DNA of 64,000 nt from Desulfitibacter sp. BRH_c19 (GTDB lineage: Bacteria > Bacillota > DSM-16504 > Desulfitibacterales > Desulfitibacteraceae): contig LOER01000033.1 in NCBI GenBank assembly GCA_001515945.1, positions 124,001-188,000 of the forward strand, in the 5' to 3' direction. Made by a program: the position numbers and the translations under genes. Below the pieces are notes generated by a model. That model ran no database searches. It saw nothing but the letters and a program-made list of their open reading frames with translations, and was not told the origin of the DNA. The number at the start of each line of letters is the position of its first letter. Position 1 is the first letter of the stretch. Positions 15,518 to 56,346 of the stretch are shown one piece after another.

Positions 15518-16411
15518 TTACCCATTAATTCTTCTCTCAACAGTTAACCCTTCATTGTATTTGATGACTAAATATAGACTGTGATAGTCTTTTCCAGGAT
15601 TTACATCTATATGCAGGACTTTTACTTCTCTATCCGATAAATCAGCATCGTCAAAAAACCAGCGTTCCTGTGAAACATTGCCAGCATTTCTGGCCTCCAA
15701 GTATACTTCCTGCACTTTATAATAGCTGTCATCTGAAGCTGCCCAATGAAACATACCGCGAATATTGCCATTCTGCAATATGGTGATATCAGCATTGATT
15801 GGACTAAATATTCCATAGGTTATTTCCCACAGGTTTAGGCTAAGCACATCACTATTACGTATGCTCCCCTGTGTTTGCGAGGAAATGTAATATTCATATG
15901 ATAACTCAGGCTCATCTAGTACTTTTTCTTCTACTTGTACCGAGTGTCCGTTGGAGGCCACACTACTTTCCTGACTAAACTGGAGATTTACAATGGGCTC
16001 TTTGGGAGGATCGATGGGTAATCTAACTGTAAAATAGCCGTTTGACTTTTTATCAGCCTCAATCTCTGTAAACTCACCTATATTTCCATCTCTGTAGTTG
16101 AAGGTAATCCTGCTATCTTCTTGATAATCTCTTAGCTGCCATTTGACCCTTACTACTGCTTCGTCTTTCGATAAATCCTCAACCTGAACTTGGGCAGGTG
16201 TCCACCATCTTTCCTGCTCTCTCATATCAGCAACGATTCCCCTAATCCCTGACACTTCATTTGATACCTGCATACTGATATTACTTATCTCACTCTGCAA
16301 GTAATTGATTCGGTTTTGCATTTCTTTCATCTTTGCTGAATTTGACATGCTAAGAAAGATAATAATTGCTAGACATACAAAAATTATTCTTCTGTCTCTT
16401 TTTTCAAACAT
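15518..16411 (-). CDS. Membrane-anchored protein of unknown function
   Basis: This 297-aa protein is not recognised. Residues 8-24 form a single hydrophobic anchor (IIFVCLAIIIFLSMS). A heptad-like coiled coil follows (residues 27-66, KMKEMQNRINYLQSEISNIS), and then an extracytoplasmic, beta-rich region of about 230 residues with no known motif. It contains phrases typical of beta-sandwich domains (VRVKWQLRDY, FTVRLPIDPPKEP). It stands alone between a sensor kinase gene and the ada region. A surface structural or sensing role is conceivable, but nothing specific supports one. Confidence 0.65.
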   Translation of the reverse strand: MFEKRDRRIIFVCLAIIIFLSMSNSAKMKEMQNRINYLQSEISNISMQVSNEVSGIRGIVADMREQERWWTPAQVQVEDLSKDEAVVRVKWQLRDYQEDSRITFNYRDGNIGEFTEIEADKKSNGYFTVRLPIDPPKEPIVNLQFSQESSVASNGHSVQVEEKVLDEPELSYEYYISSQTQGSIRNSDVLSLNLWEITYGIFSPINADITILQNGNIRGMFHWAASDDSYYKVQEVYLEARNAGNVSQERWFFDDADLSDREVKVLHIDVNPGKDYHSLYLVIKYNEGLTVERRING

Positions 16412-16607
16412 TGAGCTACCCCCATTTTATGATCATAGAGCTTTATGGTTCTATAATAGTATAGACGAACAATCAAATGGAAAGTTGCATTAAAAAACTT
16501 TACAGTCATTTTAGTAGGGTGCGGCATCATCGCCTTTTAAGGCACCAGAAGCGGAACAGATGATTCAATATTATAAGTTGGAAAAGAAAATTACAGTTGG
16601 AGCACAA

Positions 16608-16642
16608 TTTATCCGATGGCTAACTACCACTAAGACTCCCAC
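16608..16642. repeat. Solo end of the MITE-like element
   Basis: This is the inverted copy of the right arm at 9642-9675 (TTTATCC, then GATGGCTAACTACCACTAAG), almost identical over 33 bp. No opposite arm is found nearby. It lies directly downstream of the truncated ogt frame, so it may mark the event that removed the ogt 3' end. Confidence 0.6.
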
Positions 16643-16646
16643 CTCT

Positions 16647-17008
16647 TTACTGTAGCTTTGGCTGAACGAGTTCACTAGCTAGCCCTATAGCTCGAGCAGC
16701 ATTTGGCACACCTATTTTTACAGCTATCTCTTTGTAAGCTACCGTCTTACCATAGGGTATTTTACAAAGACTTTCCCAAACTTGCTTCATAAAAGCCGTA
16801 CCTTCAGGTGCAAGGGGCAGAAAAAATCCTTAATTTCACCTGAAAGATAGACCTTAAGCTGCCTAGCTGCTTCCTTCAAAATAGGTGTTTCGCATATGTT
16901 GAGAACTTGTGGTAAAGGCTCATTTGCAAAATGTAAATGAGTGATTTTTCCATCTTTTTCTGCTATACCAATTTCACCAACGACAGTATCATAGTAATAA
17001 ATAGGCAC
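16647..17008 (-). pseudogene. ogt: Frameshifted and truncated O6-alkylguanine-DNA alkyltransferase
   Basis: The gene starts at the GTG at 17008, overlapping the adaA stop (TAGTG). It encodes MPIYYYDTVVGEIGIAEKDG and continues to GEIKDFF. Loss of one T in a T-run near 16827-16832 shifts the frame; the correct frame resumes as LPLAPEGTAFMKQVWESL, then IPYGKTVAYKEIA and NAARAIGLASE. It then stops at 16647 before the catalytic PCHR motif, so the active-site Cys is missing. Even if the frameshift were a sequencing error, the product would be inactive. The intact enzyme would transfer alkyl groups from O6-alkylguanine to itself. Confidence 0.8.
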
Positions 17009-49709: not shown

Positions 49710-51107
49710 TTAGTACCGCTTTCTCTTACTTGTTGATACTATGCCCAGCTCACTTCTGTATTTTGCTACTGTTCTTCTTGATATATTTATGCCCTGAGCC
49801 TTTAAAATATTTGTTAATTGCTGGTCTGTATAAGGTTTATTGGAGTTTTCATTTATGACATAATCTTTCAGCATCTTTTTTATGCTTTCAGAAGACACGC
49901 CATTACCAGCATAGTTGTCAACACCACTTGCAAAAAAGAATTTTAGTGGAAATACTCCCTGTGGTGTTTGGATATATTTATTGTTGGTTGCCCTACTAAC
50001 AGTTGACTCATGTATGTCTAACTGGTCAGCAATTTGCTTTAAATTTAGAGGTTTTAAACACTTTACCCCGTCATCAAGAAAAGCTTTCTGAAAATCTACG
50101 ATGCAGTTCACAACCCTATATAATGTTAGTCTTCTTTGTTCAATACTCCTAATAATCCATGCTGCTGAATTTAATTTACCTTCAATAAACTTTTTAGCAT
50201 TAATGTCCACAGTATCTGCTGATAATAATCTTCTGTAAACAGGATTAATCCCCAATCTCGGGGTGGAAACATCATTAACTATTACAATAAATTCACCTTC
50301 AACCTTCTCCACAGCTACATCCGGCACAATATATGTTGTCTGATCGGAATCTGCAAACCACCGGCCTGGTTTTGGATCAAGTGTTTTTATATAATCAACT
50401 AATTGCTGGACTTCTTCGGGAGTAATATCTAAGCTTTTAGATATCTTCAATAATTTGCCTGCCGCAATATCTTCTAAATGATATTTTATTATTGATGTTA
50501 ATAAAGAGTTTAGCTCAAGCTCCTGATGACTTATTTGTAATAATAAACATTCTGCTAGATCTCTTGCAGCTATACCAGGTGGGTCGAAGGACTGAACCAA
50601 TTTTAATGCAGCTTCTGCTTTATCGAGATTCACAGAGTACATATCACAAATTTCTTTCAATGTAGTGCACAAATATCCATTTTTATCTATATTTCCAATA
50701 ATAAAACTAGCAATGTTTTTCTCGTTAGTACTACAACAAGACATTTCTAGTTGAGTTAATAAGAAATCTTCTAAAGATGGAGCCTTAGTTAAAAAATTAT
50801 CATAATTAATCTCTTTATATTCTTCACGAGGTGCTTTTATATATCCAATGTCGCGATCCTGAAAGTATTCGTGCCAGTCAACGTCAAACTTTTCCTTTTC
50901 ATCCTTTGCAGTTTCAGTTGCAGCAACCTCTTCAGAGTTTTCCTCAGCAACTTCTATTTCTAAAGCTGGATTTTCCATGATTTGTTCCTGCACAAACTCA
51001 GCCAATTCGAGAGATGATAACTGTAGGACAGCTATAGCCTGACGCAGTTCTGGAGTCATTATTAATTTTTGGGTTTGCTGTAAGTTAAGTTCGAAGCCCA
51101 TTTGCAT
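49710..51107 (-). CDS. rpoN: RNA polymerase sigma-54 factor
   Basis: This 465-aa protein has all three regions: the Gln/Leu-rich activator-interacting region I (QMGFELNLQQTQKLIMTPEL), an acidic linker, a core-binding domain (SFDPPGIAARDLAECLLLQI), the HTH (LKQIADQLDIHESTVSRATN) and the RpoN box (ISRRTVAKYRSELGI). It directs transcription from -24/-12 promoters and needs an AAA+ activator; none is in this window. The ATG at 51107 has AAGGAG about 10 nt upstream. It lies 250 bp downstream of the PAS histidine kinase gene in the same orientation. Confidence 0.97.
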   Translation of the reverse strand: MQMGFELNLQQTQKLIMTPELRQAIAVLQLSSLELAEFVQEQIMENPALEIEVAEENSEEVAATETAKDEKEKFDVDWHEYFQDRDIGYIKAPREEYKEINYDNFLTKAPSLEDFLLTQLEMSCCSTNEKNIASFIIGNIDKNGYLCTTLKEICDMYSVNLDKAEAALKLVQSFDPPGIAARDLAECLLLQISHQELELNSLLTSIIKYHLEDIAAGKLLKISKSLDITPEEVQQLVDYIKTLDPKPGRWFADSDQTTYIVPDVAVEKVEGEFIVIVNDVSTPRLGINPVYRRLLSADTVDINAKKFIEGKLNSAAWIIRSIEQRRLTLYRVVNCIVDFQKAFLDDGVKCLKPLNLKQIADQLDIHESTVSRATNNKYIQTPQGVFPLKFFFASGVDNYAGNGVSSESIKKMLKDYVINENSNKPYTDQQLTNILKAQGINISRRTVAKYRSELGIVSTSKRKRY

Positions 51108-51360
51108 AAAACCCACACTCCTTAAAAGACATTTTAAAAGAACAATGTCAATGTCTTACTCCATATATTCTATATAAGTATCAATATTTCCTTCTCATTG
51201 CCCCTTGGTTATATTTATTCGCCACATTTTGTTTAATTCTAGATGGACATGACAAATCATTTTGGTTATTATTGTAATAATTTTCAGTTAAATCCACCTG
51301 AACGAAATCCATCTCAAAAAGATCCACAAAAAACTTCCTGTCTTAATATAAAATATGAGG

Positions 51361-53358
51361 CTAAGAGTCTGATTTGCCTTCTCTTCTGTCTTTTGAATTC
51401 TGAATTCTGTCTTCTGCAGTTAGATTAGGTTTTATAGGTAGCTTAATTATAAATATAGTTCCAACACCTTTTTTGCTTTCTATGGATATCTTACCCTTAT
51501 GATTTTCAATGATTCTATAACAAATACTAAGACCCAGTCCCGTTCCTTCATGATTAGTGGTATAGAAAGGATTAAATATATCATTTAGTATTTCATCTTC
51601 AATTCCTACACCGTTATCCTTAAAGTCGATATTAACTGACTCACCCTTAATGGTAATTGAAATCTCCAGCTTTTTAAATAATGTACCTTCCATTGCCTTT
51701 AAAGAATTCAATGCTAGATTCAGAAAAACTTGCATCAGTTGTTTATTATCCCAGTTCACTATTGGATTATCATTTTGCTTGTATACAAGGGCCACTTCAG
51801 TATCTTTTAACTGACAGTGCGGCTTAATCAAACTATATATTTTTTCAAAAACTTCCTGCAAAGGCTTTTCAGTAAACTCAGGTTCTGAAGGTCTTGCGAA
51901 GGTTAAAAATTCGTTCAACATTGAATTAGCTCTATTAGCTTCTTCAATTATTAGTGCGAAGGTGTCTGCTAAGCTATCATTTTCGACTTTTCTTTGCTTT
52001 AATTGTGCCATACCCTTGATTATAGTTAATGGATTCCTAATTTCATGGGCTATTCCGGCGGCCATTTCTCCTATAGCTGCTAGTTTATCAGCTTGCATAA
52101 TTTGCCTATCTCTCTTCTTTAATTCTGTAACATCATTTATTAAAAAAGAAACACCCTCTACTCTTTCCTGAATGTTTTTTATAACCCCTACAGATATTAA
52201 CAGTTCTTTATGTTTTTGAGTTTCACCTCTCAATTTCAGCTCTCGATTCAAAAAATTCCTCGGTGACTGGAGCACTTTTTCTATATAATCGCTAAGTTCA
52301 TTAGAAAAAAGCTCACGATAACTTCTAAATAACGCTGTATTATGATCCAAGTAAAAAAAGCTACTGGCCTCTTTATTGAAAAATATCAAATCACCTTTTT
52401 CACTAAACGTGAGCAGAGGCATTTCTATTGAGTTAGTTATAAAATGCACCTTTTGTTCAAGGCTATATAGAACATTGGTCTGAGTAAGGTCTTTAATTAT
52501 AAAAACCTTTCCAAGATAAGTTCCATCATCACTTGCAACTTTAGAACAACTCAAAAGATAATTGTTGTCGCTTATAAAAACACCCTCATCACTAGGCAAT
52601 TCTGTTTCTGTATTTTGAGCTATCTCAACTAGAGATGACGTTTCTGACATACCACTAATATTAGATATACTTTTTTCTAAAACTAGGTTTTTATCTAATT
52701 TTAATATTTCTTCAGCTGACGAATTGAAAATTCTTACTATATCGTTGTTATCAATATACACAATACCACAGTCATTATTCTCCAAGATATATTTGTCCCT
52801 TTGGGCAAATTCTATTATGCTGGACCTCATCTGCTCTTCTGTTTCCAAGAGGCTACCAAGTAACCAGATTAAAAGAACGGAGATTACTGTAAAAATAAAC
52901 ATTTCTTCGAAGTTAAGATCACTTGCATTTGCTAAAAGGTCTAAAATTAAAAAAGCTATAATAGTTATGCCGGTAATAATAAGACCTATCTGCTTACCAT
53001 ACTTAATGATAACAAGAATCATGGGAATGAAAAATAAACTTTTTGTCACAAAGGAATCAGTTAAATAAGCCAATAAAAATACTGTAAATATATAACCAGC
53101 TAATATCAGTATTTCATAAATCAGCGCTTTTTTAGTGTTATATGGTTTTATTTTTCCAAGGAAAGCCAGGGTGATTATTCCTAGAAAGCTTATCATAAGT
53201 AGTGCATAAAATGATTCCATACTGGCATAGCTAGCTGCTTCAAACTGCAAGTACCATATAATAATGACAAAATGAAATACCATTTGAAATATAACAAGGT
53301 ATCTGTTTATTTTTTCTTTTCTCTCGTTTTCAAACATAGAAATATTCATTAAACACAC
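51361..53358 (-). CDS. Membrane PAS sensor histidine kinase (NtrB/AtoS-like) of the agr-like locus
   Basis: This 665-aa protein has six or seven transmembrane helices (residues 20-180), PAS-like regions (about 190-300 and 310-420), the H box GIAHEIRNPLTIIKGMAQLK and HATPase motifs (NLALNSLKAM, DNGVGIED, GTGLGLSICYRI). Such kinases typically phosphorylate NtrC-type sigma-54 activators, which fits rpoN next door. The membrane domain is homologous by eye to that of the GGDEF/HD-GYP protein at 53895 (KINRYLVIFQMVFHF against EINKYIFTFQIAFHF; IKYGKQI against IKYGKRI). The last 20 residues are encoded by GAATTC-type repeats. The start may be GTG 53358 or ATG 53349. Confidence 0.9.
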   Translation of the reverse strand: MCLMNISMFENERKEKINRYLVIFQMVFHFVIIIWYLQFEAASYASMESFYALLMISFLGIITLAFLGKIKPYNTKKALIYEILILAGYIFTVFLLAYLTDSFVTKSLFFIPMILVIIKYGKQIGLIITGITIIAFLILDLLANASDLNFEEMFIFTVISVLLIWLLGSLLETEEQMRSSIIEFAQRDKYILENNDCGIVYIDNNDIVRIFNSSAEEILKLDKNLVLEKSISNISGMSETSSLVEIAQNTETELPSDEGVFISDNNYLLSCSKVASDDGTYLGKVFIIKDLTQTNVLYSLEQKVHFITNSIEMPLLTFSEKGDLIFFNKEASSFFYLDHNTALFRSYRELFSNELSDYIEKVLQSPRNFLNRELKLRGETQKHKELLISVGVIKNIQERVEGVSFLINDVTELKKRDRQIMQADKLAAIGEMAAGIAHEIRNPLTIIKGMAQLKQRKVENDSLADTFALIIEEANRANSMLNEFLTFARPSEPEFTEKPLQEVFEKIYSLIKPHCQLKDTEVALVYKQNDNPIVNWDNKQLMQVFLNLALNSLKAMEGTLFKKLEISITIKGESVNIDFKDNGVGIEDEILNDIFNPFYTTNHEGTGLGLSICYRIIENHKGKISIESKKGVGTIFIIKLPIKPNLTAEDRIQNSKDRREGKSDS
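51370..51420 (-). repeat. GAATTC-type repeats inside the kinase gene 3' end
   Basis: On the minus strand CTGCAGAAGACAGAATTCAG, then AATTCAAAAGACAGAAGAG, are units of the same family as at 48035-48062. Here they are translated, giving the kinase a repeat-derived tail (AEDRIQNSKDRREGK). Confidence 0.65.
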
Positions 53359-53370
53359 ATTCCTAAAACA

Positions 53371-53826
53371 TTATTTTGTTTTATGTCTCCTCATGAAAAG
53401 AATTATGAATCCTGTTAAAAAAAGTAAAATAGTCTGTGGAGTAGCAATAGCTATTCTTAATATGGGGCTTTCGATTACTGTTTCAAGGCTTATATTAAAT
53501 TGATACATTAAAAATTTAAAGGCTATAAACTCATAGACTATAAGAAATATACCAGAACCAAGAGCAGCAGGAATTACCTTGATCATATCATATTTAATAG
53601 CATAGGAAATAATAAAAGATAAGAATAACATTAATAGTACAGTATGTACTCCAAAGGCAAATGGCAACAGCCTAATAAATAATGCTCCCGTAGTTTGGAT
53701 TATTCCCAGCAATAATACCGTTTTCCAATTAAATTTAGCCTTTAGTAATACCATAGATAAAAATACTAGAGCAGTTGATTCAGGTATTCCTTGCAGTACT
53801 GCAGATATAATGGGCAATTTATACAT
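53371..53826 (-). CDS. Small integral membrane protein of the agr-like locus
   Basis: This 151-aa protein has about five hydrophobic helices and almost no loops (start MYKLPIISAVLQGIPESTAL, then LLGIIQTTGALFIRLLPFAF). It ends in a basic FMRRHKTK. From memory, similar stand-alone or kinase-fused membrane domains with an LQGIPES-like start occur near AgrB genes in Clostridia, but I cannot verify this. It lies 13 bp before the kinase gene and 68 bp after the GGDEF/HD-GYP gene, all in one direction. It could be a receptor part, a pheromone exporter component or an accessory membrane protein. Confidence 0.7.
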   Translation of the reverse strand: MYKLPIISAVLQGIPESTALVFLSMVLLKAKFNWKTVLLLGIIQTTGALFIRLLPFAFGVHTVLLMLFLSFIISYAIKYDMIKVIPAALGSGIFLIVYEFIAFKFLMYQFNISLETVIESPILRIAIATPQTILLFLTGFIILFMRRHKTK

Positions 53827-53894
53827 TTAAAGGAACCTCCTTAGTTTGTGTCACCTATATATTTCGACAATTTTTGCAGTATTCCTGCTAAATA

Positions 53895-55550
53895 TTACCT
53901 GGCTTTTAATAAAGCTTGTTCCCTTTTAATAACTTTGCACATAATATCTACAATATACTTATCGTACAAGGTTCCTGCTCCGTTATTTAACTCTGCTAAA
54001 ACCTGCTGAGTTGACATCTCAGGTTTGTAAGATCTTTTAGTTATCATGGCATCATAGCTGTCAACAACCCTTAGAATCCTTGCTTCTATTGGAATATTAA
54101 TATTTTTTATTTTAGATGGATATCCAGTTCCATCAAAGTTTTCATGATGAAATTTTATAATATTTGCTACTTCATGAAAATAATGGTTAGCACAAATAAT
54201 GTCAGCTCCCCATCCTGGATGCATCATCATCATTTCCCATTCTTTTTTGGTTAGTTTCCCCTGTTTATTTAATACTTCTCTTGGGATTTCTATCTTGCCA
54301 ATGTCATGGAATAAGGCTGCCCATTTCAAGTTTCGGATCTGTAAATTAGAAAGTTTCATTTCCTTAGCTACTTTTAAAGCTGACTCCATTACTCTTTCTG
54401 AATGTCCAAAGGTATAACGATCCTTTGCATTTAATACTCGCAACAGTACTTTTACAGAATCAACAAATCCCTTTTCATTTTCATCTAAATCAGTATCTAC
54501 AACATCAAATATGGACTGGTATACACTAATCTTTTCTTTGCTTACAAATTTAGCTTTATAAAGGGCATCGTCTGCTGCTTGAATCAAGTCATCCTTTGTC
54601 TTTGAGGTAGTAGGATATGCAGCTATGCCCTGCGAAAGAGTAATTTTCCCAATGGGTATTTTTTTTGCTCCATAAAACTCTGCTTTTTCTACAACTTCCT
54701 TTACCATTTCAGCTGTCTTTTTTGCATTTATTAAATCATAACCTGGTAGGATTAAAGCAAACTCATCCCCACCAAATCTTGCAGCAATTCCTTCACTATT
54801 TATTGTTCTTTTAAGTATATCCGCAACTTCTCTTAACACTTCATCTCCCTTTTGGTGACCATAGGAGTCATTATATATTTTAAAATGATCTAAATCCATC
54901 ATAACTAAAGATACCGGACTTTGCTCATTACTTATAAAAACGCATTTCTCAAGGATATCATGAAACGTTCTGTGGTTTATTAAATCCGTTAATCCATCCT
55001 TTTCAGCTAGTTCAGTAATTCTTTCCCGAGCGGTTTTTTCAATTTCCATGAGGTTGCCTATTAACCAGGATATAAGTATTAATAATCCACCTATAATCAA
55101 ACTGGTTTCTAAGCTAATAATTTCATAAAAATAATAATAGAATATATCATTAATAAACATAATGCCTGCAATCAGTCCTGCAATCATTATACTTATTCTT
55201 TTTCCATATTTTATTGTAATTATAATTACTGGTACAAATAATAATATACGAGCTCCAATAAAATCAACACTATAAATAAGATAACCTATTAAAAAAAGGT
55301 AAATTAATAAAACAAGAACTTCATAAGTTAAACCATTTCCATCTTTTTTGTAATTTAACTTTCCCAACATTGTAATGGCAAAGATACCAAAAAGTAATAT
55401 TATTAAAAATGACATAAAGCTATCTACTGAGGTAATATTATAATAGTCAGCTAAAGTTATCAATAAAATCATCAGCAAAAAATGAAATGCTATTTGAAAG
55501 GTAAATATATATTTGTTAATTTCCTTTTGTCTTTGTTCTTCATATTTCAT
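53895..55550 (-). CDS. Membrane GGDEF/HD-GYP c-di-GMP protein of the agr-like locus
   Basis: This 551-aa protein has six or seven transmembrane helices (residues 15-170), a GGDEF domain (about 185-345) with intact RFGGDEFALILPGY but no RxxD inhibitory site five residues upstream, and an HD-GYP domain (about 360-545) with HDIGK and HHENFDGTGYP. It could both make and degrade c-di-GMP. Its membrane part is homologous to that of the histidine kinase two genes downstream. It starts at an ATG after GAGGAG and follows agrD by 51 nt, with a hairpin between them. This suggests a c-di-GMP output linked to the peptide signal. Confidence 0.92.
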   Translation of the reverse strand: MKYEEQRQKEINKYIFTFQIAFHFLLMILLITLADYYNITSVDSFMSFLIILLFGIFAITMLGKLNYKKDGNGLTYEVLVLLIYLFLIGYLIYSVDFIGARILLFVPVIIITIKYGKRISIMIAGLIAGIMFINDIFYYYFYEIISLETSLIIGGLLILISWLIGNLMEIEKTARERITELAEKDGLTDLINHRTFHDILEKCVFISNEQSPVSLVMMDLDHFKIYNDSYGHQKGDEVLREVADILKRTINSEGIAARFGGDEFALILPGYDLINAKKTAEMVKEVVEKAEFYGAKKIPIGKITLSQGIAAYPTTSKTKDDLIQAADDALYKAKFVSKEKISVYQSIFDVVDTDLDENEKGFVDSVKVLLRVLNAKDRYTFGHSERVMESALKVAKEMKLSNLQIRNLKWAALFHDIGKIEIPREVLNKQGKLTKKEWEMMMMHPGWGADIICANHYFHEVANIIKFHHENFDGTGYPSKIKNINIPIEARILRVVDSYDAMITKRSYKPEMSTQQVLAELNNGAGTLYDKYIVDIMCKVIKREQALLKAR

Positions 55551-55570
55551 CTAAAATATATCTCCTCACT

Positions 55571-55598
55571 ATAAAGAGGTGGTCTCCCACCTCTTTAT
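55571..55598 (-). promoter_or_regulatory. Perfect 12-bp hairpin between agrD and the GGDEF gene
   Basis: ATAAAGAGGTGG pairs perfectly with CCACCTCTTTAT around a 4-nt GAGA loop. There is no U-tract; the ribosome binding site of the next gene follows directly. It is more likely an mRNA stabiliser, processing site or partial attenuator than a full terminator. It would let agrBD be expressed more highly than the downstream genes. Confidence 0.6.
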
Positions 55599-55601
55599 AT
55601 A

Positions 55602-55733
55602 CTATCTTCTTAAGCTTTTTGGAAGTTCAGGTTGATATGCCCAAGCAAAGCAAGCTCCTGCGGCACTAACTAAAGCAAGTATTGTCAACAAGTATGTAGC
55701 AGTTGTTAAAACTAAAAGTCTAAGTTTTTTCAT
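55602..55733 (-). CDS. agrD: AgrD-like cyclic lactone autoinducer peptide precursor
   Basis: This 43-aa frame has the AgrD layout: a basic, amphipathic N-terminal leader (MKKLRLLVLTTATYLLTILA), a central Cys (residue 28) in GACFAWAYQPELPKSL, and a charged Pro-containing C-terminal recognition tail. The signal is expected to be a thiolactone ring closed on Cys28, but its exact ends are unknown. The ATG lies inside the agrB 3' end, giving a 14-nt overlap, with a GGGGGGAG site also inside agrB. This is the classic agrB-agrD arrangement. Confidence 0.88.
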   Translation of the reverse strand: MKKLRLLVLTTATYLLTILALVSAAGACFAWAYQPELPKSLRR

Positions 55734-56346
55734 GTATCTCCCCCCCTTTCAGTATCAGTTTTAATAAATCATCAATATATGCGATGACTTTGATGCCTAA
55801 TGGAGTAATGGTAAAACTTTGCCATAAAAACCCAGTAGTGATATATAAAATAGTTCGCATATCAAAAACAAAATATGATAAAATGACAACTGCTCCAATG
55901 ACTGCACTAAACCCCAGAGCACCCTTTTTCAATTTCCTTCTGTGGGGCTCTGATATAGGCTTTTCCTTTACTTGTACAGGTGCATATACTGCGATAAAAA
56001 TCACCGCTACTATAAAACAGACACTAATTAAACCAAATGAGAGTGTTAATATATTAGAAGTTAAATATGCAAGAAACGTGAAGACAATTATAGTTACAAC
56101 AGTACACCGTCCCATTGAACTGCAGTGAGCTCCCCCTGTAAAAACTCTGGTTACCAATGCAGTCAAAGAAATAATTAATGCAGCCCCCAACAATCCAAAT
56201 AGATAACCAAACACTACTATCCCTAAAAACCCTAAAAAAATCGCGATAAAAGTCTCCATTCCATAGGCTAAGACTTCTCTTTTTTCTTCTGACAAATTAA
56301 GTTCTTGTTTGACATAGCAGCTAGCTCTTTCTGTATATCTAGACAT
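55720..56346 (-). CDS. agrB: AgrB-like membrane peptidase, pheromone processing
   Basis: This 208-aa protein has about five to six transmembrane segments. The catalytic His and Cys are seen in FTGGAHCSSMGRCTVV, spaced seven residues apart as in Staphylococcus aureus AgrB (His77, Cys84). The family cleaves the AgrD C-terminal tail and forms the thiolactone. The final codons overlap agrD. No AgrC (GHKL kinase) or AgrA (LytTR regulator) gene is nearby; the downstream genes encode a c-di-GMP protein and a different kinase type. A GAGG site precedes the ATG. Confidence 0.93.
   Translation of the reverse strand: MSRYTERASCYVKQELNLSEEKREVLAYGMETFIAIFLGFLGIVVFGYLFGLLGAALIISLTALVTRVFTGGAHCSSMGRCTVVTIIVFTFLAYLTSNILTLSFGLISVCFIVAVIFIAVYAPVQVKEKPISEPHRRKLKKGALGFSAVIGAVVILSYFVFDMRTILYITTGFLWQSFTITPLGIKVIAYIDDLLKLILKGGEIHEKT

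Follow-up and report, generated by a model that had tools for sequence, protein, structure and literature searches.

Gene content of the agr-type locus

An agr-type pheromone locus was analysed in Desulfitibacter sp. BRH_c19, within a 64,000-nucleotide stretch of contig LOER01000033.1 that is referred to here as the window. The locus encodes the pheromone genes agrB and agrD together with a predicted cyclic di-GMP (c-di-GMP) enzyme, a small membrane protein (SMP) and a histidine kinase, and the two large proteins each begin with an N-terminal membrane domain (NTD). The features, with window coordinates, are as follows.

55720..56346, minus strand: agrB, membrane peptidase for processing and export of the pheromone precursor (PF04647, 122.5 bits, cut-off 23)
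55602..55733, minus strand: agrD, 43-aa pheromone precursor (TIGR04223, 34.8 bits, cut-off 19)
55638..55652, minus strand: predicted pheromone ring, a five-residue thiolactone of Cys-Phe-Ala-Trp-Ala, with YQPELP after it (ring boundary inferred)
53895..55550, minus strand: membrane GGDEF/HD-GYP protein, predicted diguanylate cyclase and c-di-GMP phosphodiesterase (PF00990, GGDEF, 141 bits; PF13487, HD_5, 133 bits)
54993..55550, minus strand: six-helix NTD of the GGDEF/HD-GYP protein (homology to the kinase NTD; AlphaFold2 (AF2) model)
54522..55013, minus strand: GGDEF domain (profile match; RxxD inhibitory site not found)
53925..54464, minus strand: HD-GYP domain (profile match and motifs)
53371..53826, minus strand: SMP, proposed peptide receptor subunit (151 aa; homologues beside or fused to GHKL kinases)
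51361..53358, minus strand: membrane PAS-PAS-HisKA-HATPase_c histidine kinase (Pfam profiles above cut-offs)
52789..53358, minus strand: NTD of the histidine kinase (homology to the NTD of the GGDEF/HD-GYP protein)
55570..55599, minus strand: hairpin between agrD and the GGDEF/HD-GYP gene (13 perfect base pairs, GAGA loop; RNA fold z -6.5 against shuffles)
49710..51116, minus strand: rpoN (sigma-54), downstream neighbour (TIGR02395, 450 bits)

A first reading of these letters (the original prediction) had proposed Agr pheromone genes coupled to c-di-GMP turnover instead of to AgrC/AgrA. The analysis confirmed the gene set and coordinates it gave, the 14-nt overlap of agrB and agrD, the AgrB motif and the intact GGDEF and HD-GYP motifs, and likewise found no gene for a GHKL kinase or a LytTR regulator in the locus. 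The agr assignment is borne out by the catalytic His and Cys of AgrB (H74-x6-C81, both residues invariant in 32 aligned AgrB proteins) and by the AgrD encoded beside agrB, with the core ACFAWAYQPELP. In the GGDEF/HD-GYP protein, the motifs RFGGDEF, HDIGK and HHENFDGTGYP are all intact. The SMP shows five hydrophobic segments in a Kyte-Doolittle scan and has no Pfam match by profile search.

Conservation of the module across the phylum

When 200 relatives were searched with the NTD of the c-di-GMP enzyme, 31 gave a match, and the neighbourhoods of these matches mostly contain SMP, agrB, agrD and NTD-GGDEF-HD-GYP in that order and on a single strand. AgrB was surveyed in 300 genomes of the phylum, 119 of which were positive; 80 further neighbourhoods were added, and annotation was carried out with purpose-made profiles. 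Sorted by output, 109 agr loci comprised 54 with a GHKL kinase (28 of them with LytTR), 32 with NTD-GGDEF-HD-GYP, 13 with a HisKA kinase (5 with NTD) and 10 with no recognised output; this set is enriched for NTD types, which were fetched first, and a more cautious minimum is 32 of about 150 AgrB places listed. All 32 NTD-GGDEF-HD-GYP loci contain an SMP gene, and none contains GHKL or LytTR. In a separate scan of named genomes, which partly overlaps the genomes of the first set, 48 of 80 related loci were of the NTD-GGDEF-HD-GYP type, with carriers that include Moorella mulderi, M. stamsii, Desulfovirgula thermocuniculi, Desulforamulus putei, Clostridium tertium, C. sartagoforme and Acetobacterium bakii; the module is also present in Desulfofundulus, D. 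australicus among them.

The association holds from the side of the receiving domain too: AgrB lies within 2.5 kb of 99 of the 108 NTD proteins and an SMP within 2 kb of 98, and several of the exceptions sit at contig ends. Judged by these gene neighbourhoods, the association of agr genes with a c-di-GMP enzyme is beyond chance. Lack of conservation in related genomes had been named as an outcome that would count against the original prediction; the association instead recurs, in 32 of the 109 agr loci and over many families. The coupling to c-di-GMP turnover is strongly supported by this conservation, and its being direct, as had been claimed, stays at the level of inference.

A 40% identical match over most of the window's GGDEF/HD-GYP protein was also found at 15584-16936 of NZ_CP061968.1, a 27-kb record labelled as a Klebsiella pneumoniae plasmid, which is possibly a mislabelled or contaminating contig.

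The small membrane protein as a probable sensor half

Of the 109 agr loci, 98 contain an SMP homologue. Twelve of these encode a single protein that starts with the SMP and ends with a SpoOB-type/GHKL kinase (checked against Pfam), and in the other GHKL loci the SMP is not fused: it is mostly encoded by its own gene, adjoining the kinase gene. The window SMP shares 30% identity (E 3e-14) with the SMP of a second agr locus in the same genome, on contig C11. Six residues (E16, R52, G59, H61, E99 and P130) are each conserved in 90% or more of 74 sequences, and the AF2 model of the protein has a pLDDT of 93.9.

Given its presence in 98 loci and its fusion to a GHKL kinase in 12 of them, the SMP is most readily interpreted as the sensing part of the AgrC-type receptors of this phylum, the yardstick being the GHKL kinases of these loci. 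For the same reason, the window locus would have a split receptor rather than no receptor: an AgrC-type sensor domain appears to be present as the SMP, and a complete AgrC kinase and an AgrA with LytTR are absent from the locus. The description of the module as lacking classical receptors is therefore not upheld, as the SMP would be such a sensor half, split from its kinase. We also tried to link the SMP-GHKL fusion to named AgrC proteins through phage records, and this was rejected because only the kinase part matched.

Multiple SMP copies occur in some loci. One agr locus (L131, 2437-6944) carries several around agrB and an NTD kinase, and two or three SMP genes are found in each of L067, L179, L180 and L204.

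A shared, proposed receiving domain with exchanged outputs

The NTD makes up the first ~180 residues of both the kinase and the GGDEF/HD-GYP protein of the window, and the two copies are homologous (36% identity in an alignment of 118 residues, E 5e-22). Its AF2 model (pLDDT 88) has six long helices, the last pointing toward the output domain. By fold, the model comes closest to the membrane domain of ImcA, a diguanylate cyclase (8wcn; probability 0.93, TM score 0.49, with a weak E-value), and 13 of 51 NTD relatives match 6TM_PilS (PF25323) at E values up to 0.1 (best 2e-6).

On the tree of this domain, the two window copies group as sisters (98/93) despite their different outputs, GGDEF-HD-GYP and HisKA, and the GGDEF/HD-GYP protein of same-genus genomes is placed elsewhere; the tree needs eight output changes, four of which are forced by well-supported branches. 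Considering these placements and forced changes, output domains have been swapped repeatedly on a constant NTD.

Partial correlations of distances over 64 loci were 0.45 for SMP and NTD, 0.34 for AgrB and NTD and 0.20 for SMP and AgrB. The SMP-NTD value is in line with a physical pair, though it is no proof of one. The AgrB-NTD value, together with the character of the NTD as a multi-helix sensor-type domain with its nearest fold in the ImcA membrane domain, would also fit an arrangement in which the NTD of enzyme and kinase senses the peptide directly and the SMP is an accessory, for example a peptide chaperone or transporter. We consider this arrangement unlikely: it is the SMP, not the NTD, that is common to all agr types and takes the sensor position in the fusions with GHKL kinases, some HisKA kinases beside SMP and AgrBD have no NTD, and two loci (L054, L063) retain the SMP beside NTD kinases with no AgrB nearby.

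Predicted activity of the c-di-GMP enzyme

The HD-GYP motifs are intact in all 77 complete relatives, and the GG[DE]EF motif is kept in 62 of 78. One agr locus of another genome, L123, encodes AgrB, SMP and a 307-aa HD-GYP protein that has no GGDEF domain. These observations favour a version of the split-receptor model, compatible with it, in which the HD-GYP hydrolase is the main output: the peptide would reduce c-di-GMP, and the GGDEF domain would have a regulatory or minor role. The GGDEF motif of the window protein is nonetheless intact and free of an inhibitory site, and this protein may for that reason also make c-di-GMP; we regard hydrolysis as the main output as a tentative proposal, credible but short of probable. 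Near the agrB-SMP-HD-GYP genes of L123, at a distance of ~2.8 kb, lies an OLE RNA (L123, 854-1469 and 4227-6469).

The second agr system and its riboswitch

Contig C11 of the same genome carries a complete second agr locus in the order SMP, GHKL kinase, agrB, agrD and LytTR regulator. The phrase "instead of AgrC/AgrA" in the original prediction is accordingly right for the window locus and too broad for the genome, which has a full set alongside a chemically different AgrD. This set might itself be thought to read the window peptide, leaving the GGDEF/HD-GYP protein and the kinase to answer other cues. We consider that very unlikely: the C11 locus has an AgrD of its own with a different predicted ring (Ser-Phe-Val-Thr-Trp), and the GGDEF/HD-GYP association is found in 32 examined agr loci and many named genomes with a near-fixed order.

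The two rings fit a wider division. In the AgrD survey (loci within L037-L235), the ring residue was Cys in 72 and Ser in 1 of 73 distinct peptides of the NTD type, against Cys in 9 and Ser/Thr in 36 of 45 of the GHKL type (p 1e-20), and nearly all AgrD of the window's type share a Cys-x4-[Y/H]-x-P-[E/K]-x-P frame. The window's Cys-Phe-Ala-Trp-Ala and the C11 ring, both predicted, fall on the expected sides of this split. A five-residue Cys ring has a precedent in the Listeria autoinducing peptide A[CFMFV] (PMC12312760). Ring chemistry was rejected as an independent correlate of output type: the tree contains only two switches of output type, which leave a single independent pair, inseparable from descent, and the split between Cys and Ser/Thr may be a single ancestral difference.

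No riboswitch was found within the window. The genome contains ten c-di-GMP-I aptamers above the gathering score, and one of them, at 7476-7559 of C11 (5477-5560 in the coordinates of locus L074), lies ~190 bases upstream of the second agr operon (SMP start 5749) and is followed by a terminator-like hairpin and a T-run. The same arrangement, with the aptamer before a complete SMP-GHKL-agrB-LytTR operon, occurs in two same-genus loci (L110, 2634-2717; L112, 6359-6442), in another family of the same order (L081, 2591-2675) and in a more distant locus of one further family (L109, 2706-2792). By chance, one of ten aptamers in a genome of 3.85 Mb would lie in the 400 bases before a given operon, in the matching orientation, with a probability of ~5e-4 (10 x 400 / 7.7 million), and c-di-GMP therefore probably controls the second agr system. 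RNA folding gave no decision on whether the C11 riboswitch acts up or down. None of the 22 scanned loci of the window's type had a c-di-GMP riboswitch.

The two peptide channels may conceivably be chained, such that a Cys-ring peptide, read by a split AgrC-type sensor, would change c-di-GMP and, through the riboswitch, a second agr system with a Ser-ring lactone peptide, the NTD serving as a plug for swapped outputs. We put this forward as a possibility on the doubtful side.

In another genome, a c-di-GMP-I-GGC riboswitch separates an agrA-type gene from a gene for a small HD-GYP protein (L142, 3104-3187).

The kinase, rpoN and other features

The histidine kinase is nearest to the AtoS/NtrB type (AtoS model 302.9 bits, under the cut-off of 646; NtrB 122 bits, under 240) and is conserved in two same-genus genomes (L037 and L038). 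The adjacency of rpoN was seen only in the window's genus, its other occurrences being in those two genomes, and rpoN is a neighbour that lies outside the wider module. The link to sigma-54 suggested earlier is weak: the adjacency is confined to the genus, no sigma-54 activator or response regulator gene adjoins the kinase gene, and the genome has ~20 strong Sigma54_activat matches, from which the partner of the kinase cannot be picked.

HisKA kinases without a recognised NTD accompany SMP in seven other agr loci (L092, L095, L117, L119, L115, L133 and L149), and some of these kinases show a two-helix extracytoplasmic sensor layout. In the window, no T-run follows the hairpin between agrD and the GGDEF/HD-GYP gene, which is a possible mRNA processing or stability element.

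Proposed mechanism

We propose that the window locus represents a distinct agr type: the sensing part of AgrC exists as a protein of its own, the SMP, and c-di-GMP enzymes and histidine kinases serve as outputs in place of a GHKL kinase and a LytTR regulator. AgrB would cut and cyclise AgrD to the five-residue thiolactone and then release it. The SMP would bind the peptide within the membrane and switch the NTD-bearing proteins through contact between transmembrane helices. Switched through its NTD, the GGDEF/HD-GYP enzyme would alter c-di-GMP, and the PAS kinase would phosphorylate a regulator. The change in c-di-GMP could, in turn, be relayed to the C11 agr system through the upstream c-di-GMP-I riboswitch. 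We assign a probability of about 60% to the SMP reading the peptide and acting through the NTD on both enzymes.

Several results weigh against this proposal. The SMP gave chance-level matches to the PDB by profile search and none by fold search, and the NTD likewise gave chance-level matches in a profile search of the PDB, with no solved relative by sequence. The idea that SMP and NTD form one family was rejected (hhalign probability 1%). No SMP-NTD fusion exists among the 108 NTD proteins, so that the proposed contact rests on synteny and the distance correlation, and neighbouring genes that are inherited together correlate anyway, which is a caveat to the value of 0.45. The gene order in the window is itself atypical, as the SMP gene lies after the enzyme gene. 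About one relative in five has a degenerate GGDEF motif, and synthesis may therefore not be the general output. As for the relay, the c-di-GMP-I aptamer was found upstream in only 5 of the ~63 GHKL-type loci scanned.

If the proposal is true, peptide quorum sensing in many clostridia, including thermophilic acetogens, sulfate reducers and Clostridium, would alter c-di-GMP directly, beyond transcription, and the two main regulators of group behaviour would be joined in one membrane module. It would also explain agrBD loci that seemingly have no receptors. The AgrC sensor would then exist as a separable minimal unit of ~150 residues, whose fold is predicted with confidence and has no solved relative; this modular sensor would be amenable to study in isolation. 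With a riboswitch in front of the C11 operon, a specific regulatory chain becomes testable within a single strain.

Comparison with known systems

A 2025 primer gives AgrC/AgrA as the agr outputs and notes some clostridial loci without them (PMC12312760), and a 2026 review describes c-di-GMP outputs for signals of the diffusible signal factor (DSF) type (PMC13220807). No description of a module of agrBD, SMP and a GGDEF/HD-GYP protein was found in the open-licence literature.

With the agrBDCA systems of S. aureus and Listeria and the agrBD/agrCA system of C. acetobutylicum, the window locus shares AgrB, an AgrD with a Cys-x4 ring and an acidic, proline-rich tail, and what appears to be an AgrC-type membrane sensor domain. 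It differs from them in that the proposed sensor is a separate 151-aa protein, in that the outputs would be a six-helix GGDEF/HD-GYP enzyme and a PAS-HisKA kinase, and in having no GHKL kinase or LytTR regulator. Like C. difficile agr1 (PMC8534292), a clostridial agrBD without agrC/agrA, it has pheromone genes with no adjacent AgrC/AgrA pair; unlike agr1, it encodes a putative sensor subunit and two candidate outputs together with agrBD. In C. difficile, agr is reported to influence the expression of c-di-GMP enzymes (PMC10534356), a transcriptional link that is different from the module described here.

PilS uses six transmembrane segments to contact pilin directly, and PilR, its regulator, acts together with sigma-54 (PMC6058289). 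PilS is thus a known case of a kinase that senses a partner inside the membrane through a six-helix domain, and the two systems have in common such a domain on a PAS-HisKA kinase, a small membrane partner, proposed in the case of the window, and a possible sigma-54 context. In the window, however, the partner would be the SMP and not pilin, the domain would also drive a c-di-GMP enzyme, and there is no adjacent PilR. Finally, the DSF systems RpfC-RpfG (HD-GYP) and RpfR (PAS-GGDEF-EAL) also read a cell-to-cell signal into c-di-GMP (PMC13220807), but they do so in Gram-negative bacteria with fatty-acid signals and unrelated receptors, whereas the signal predicted here is a ribosomal cyclic peptide.

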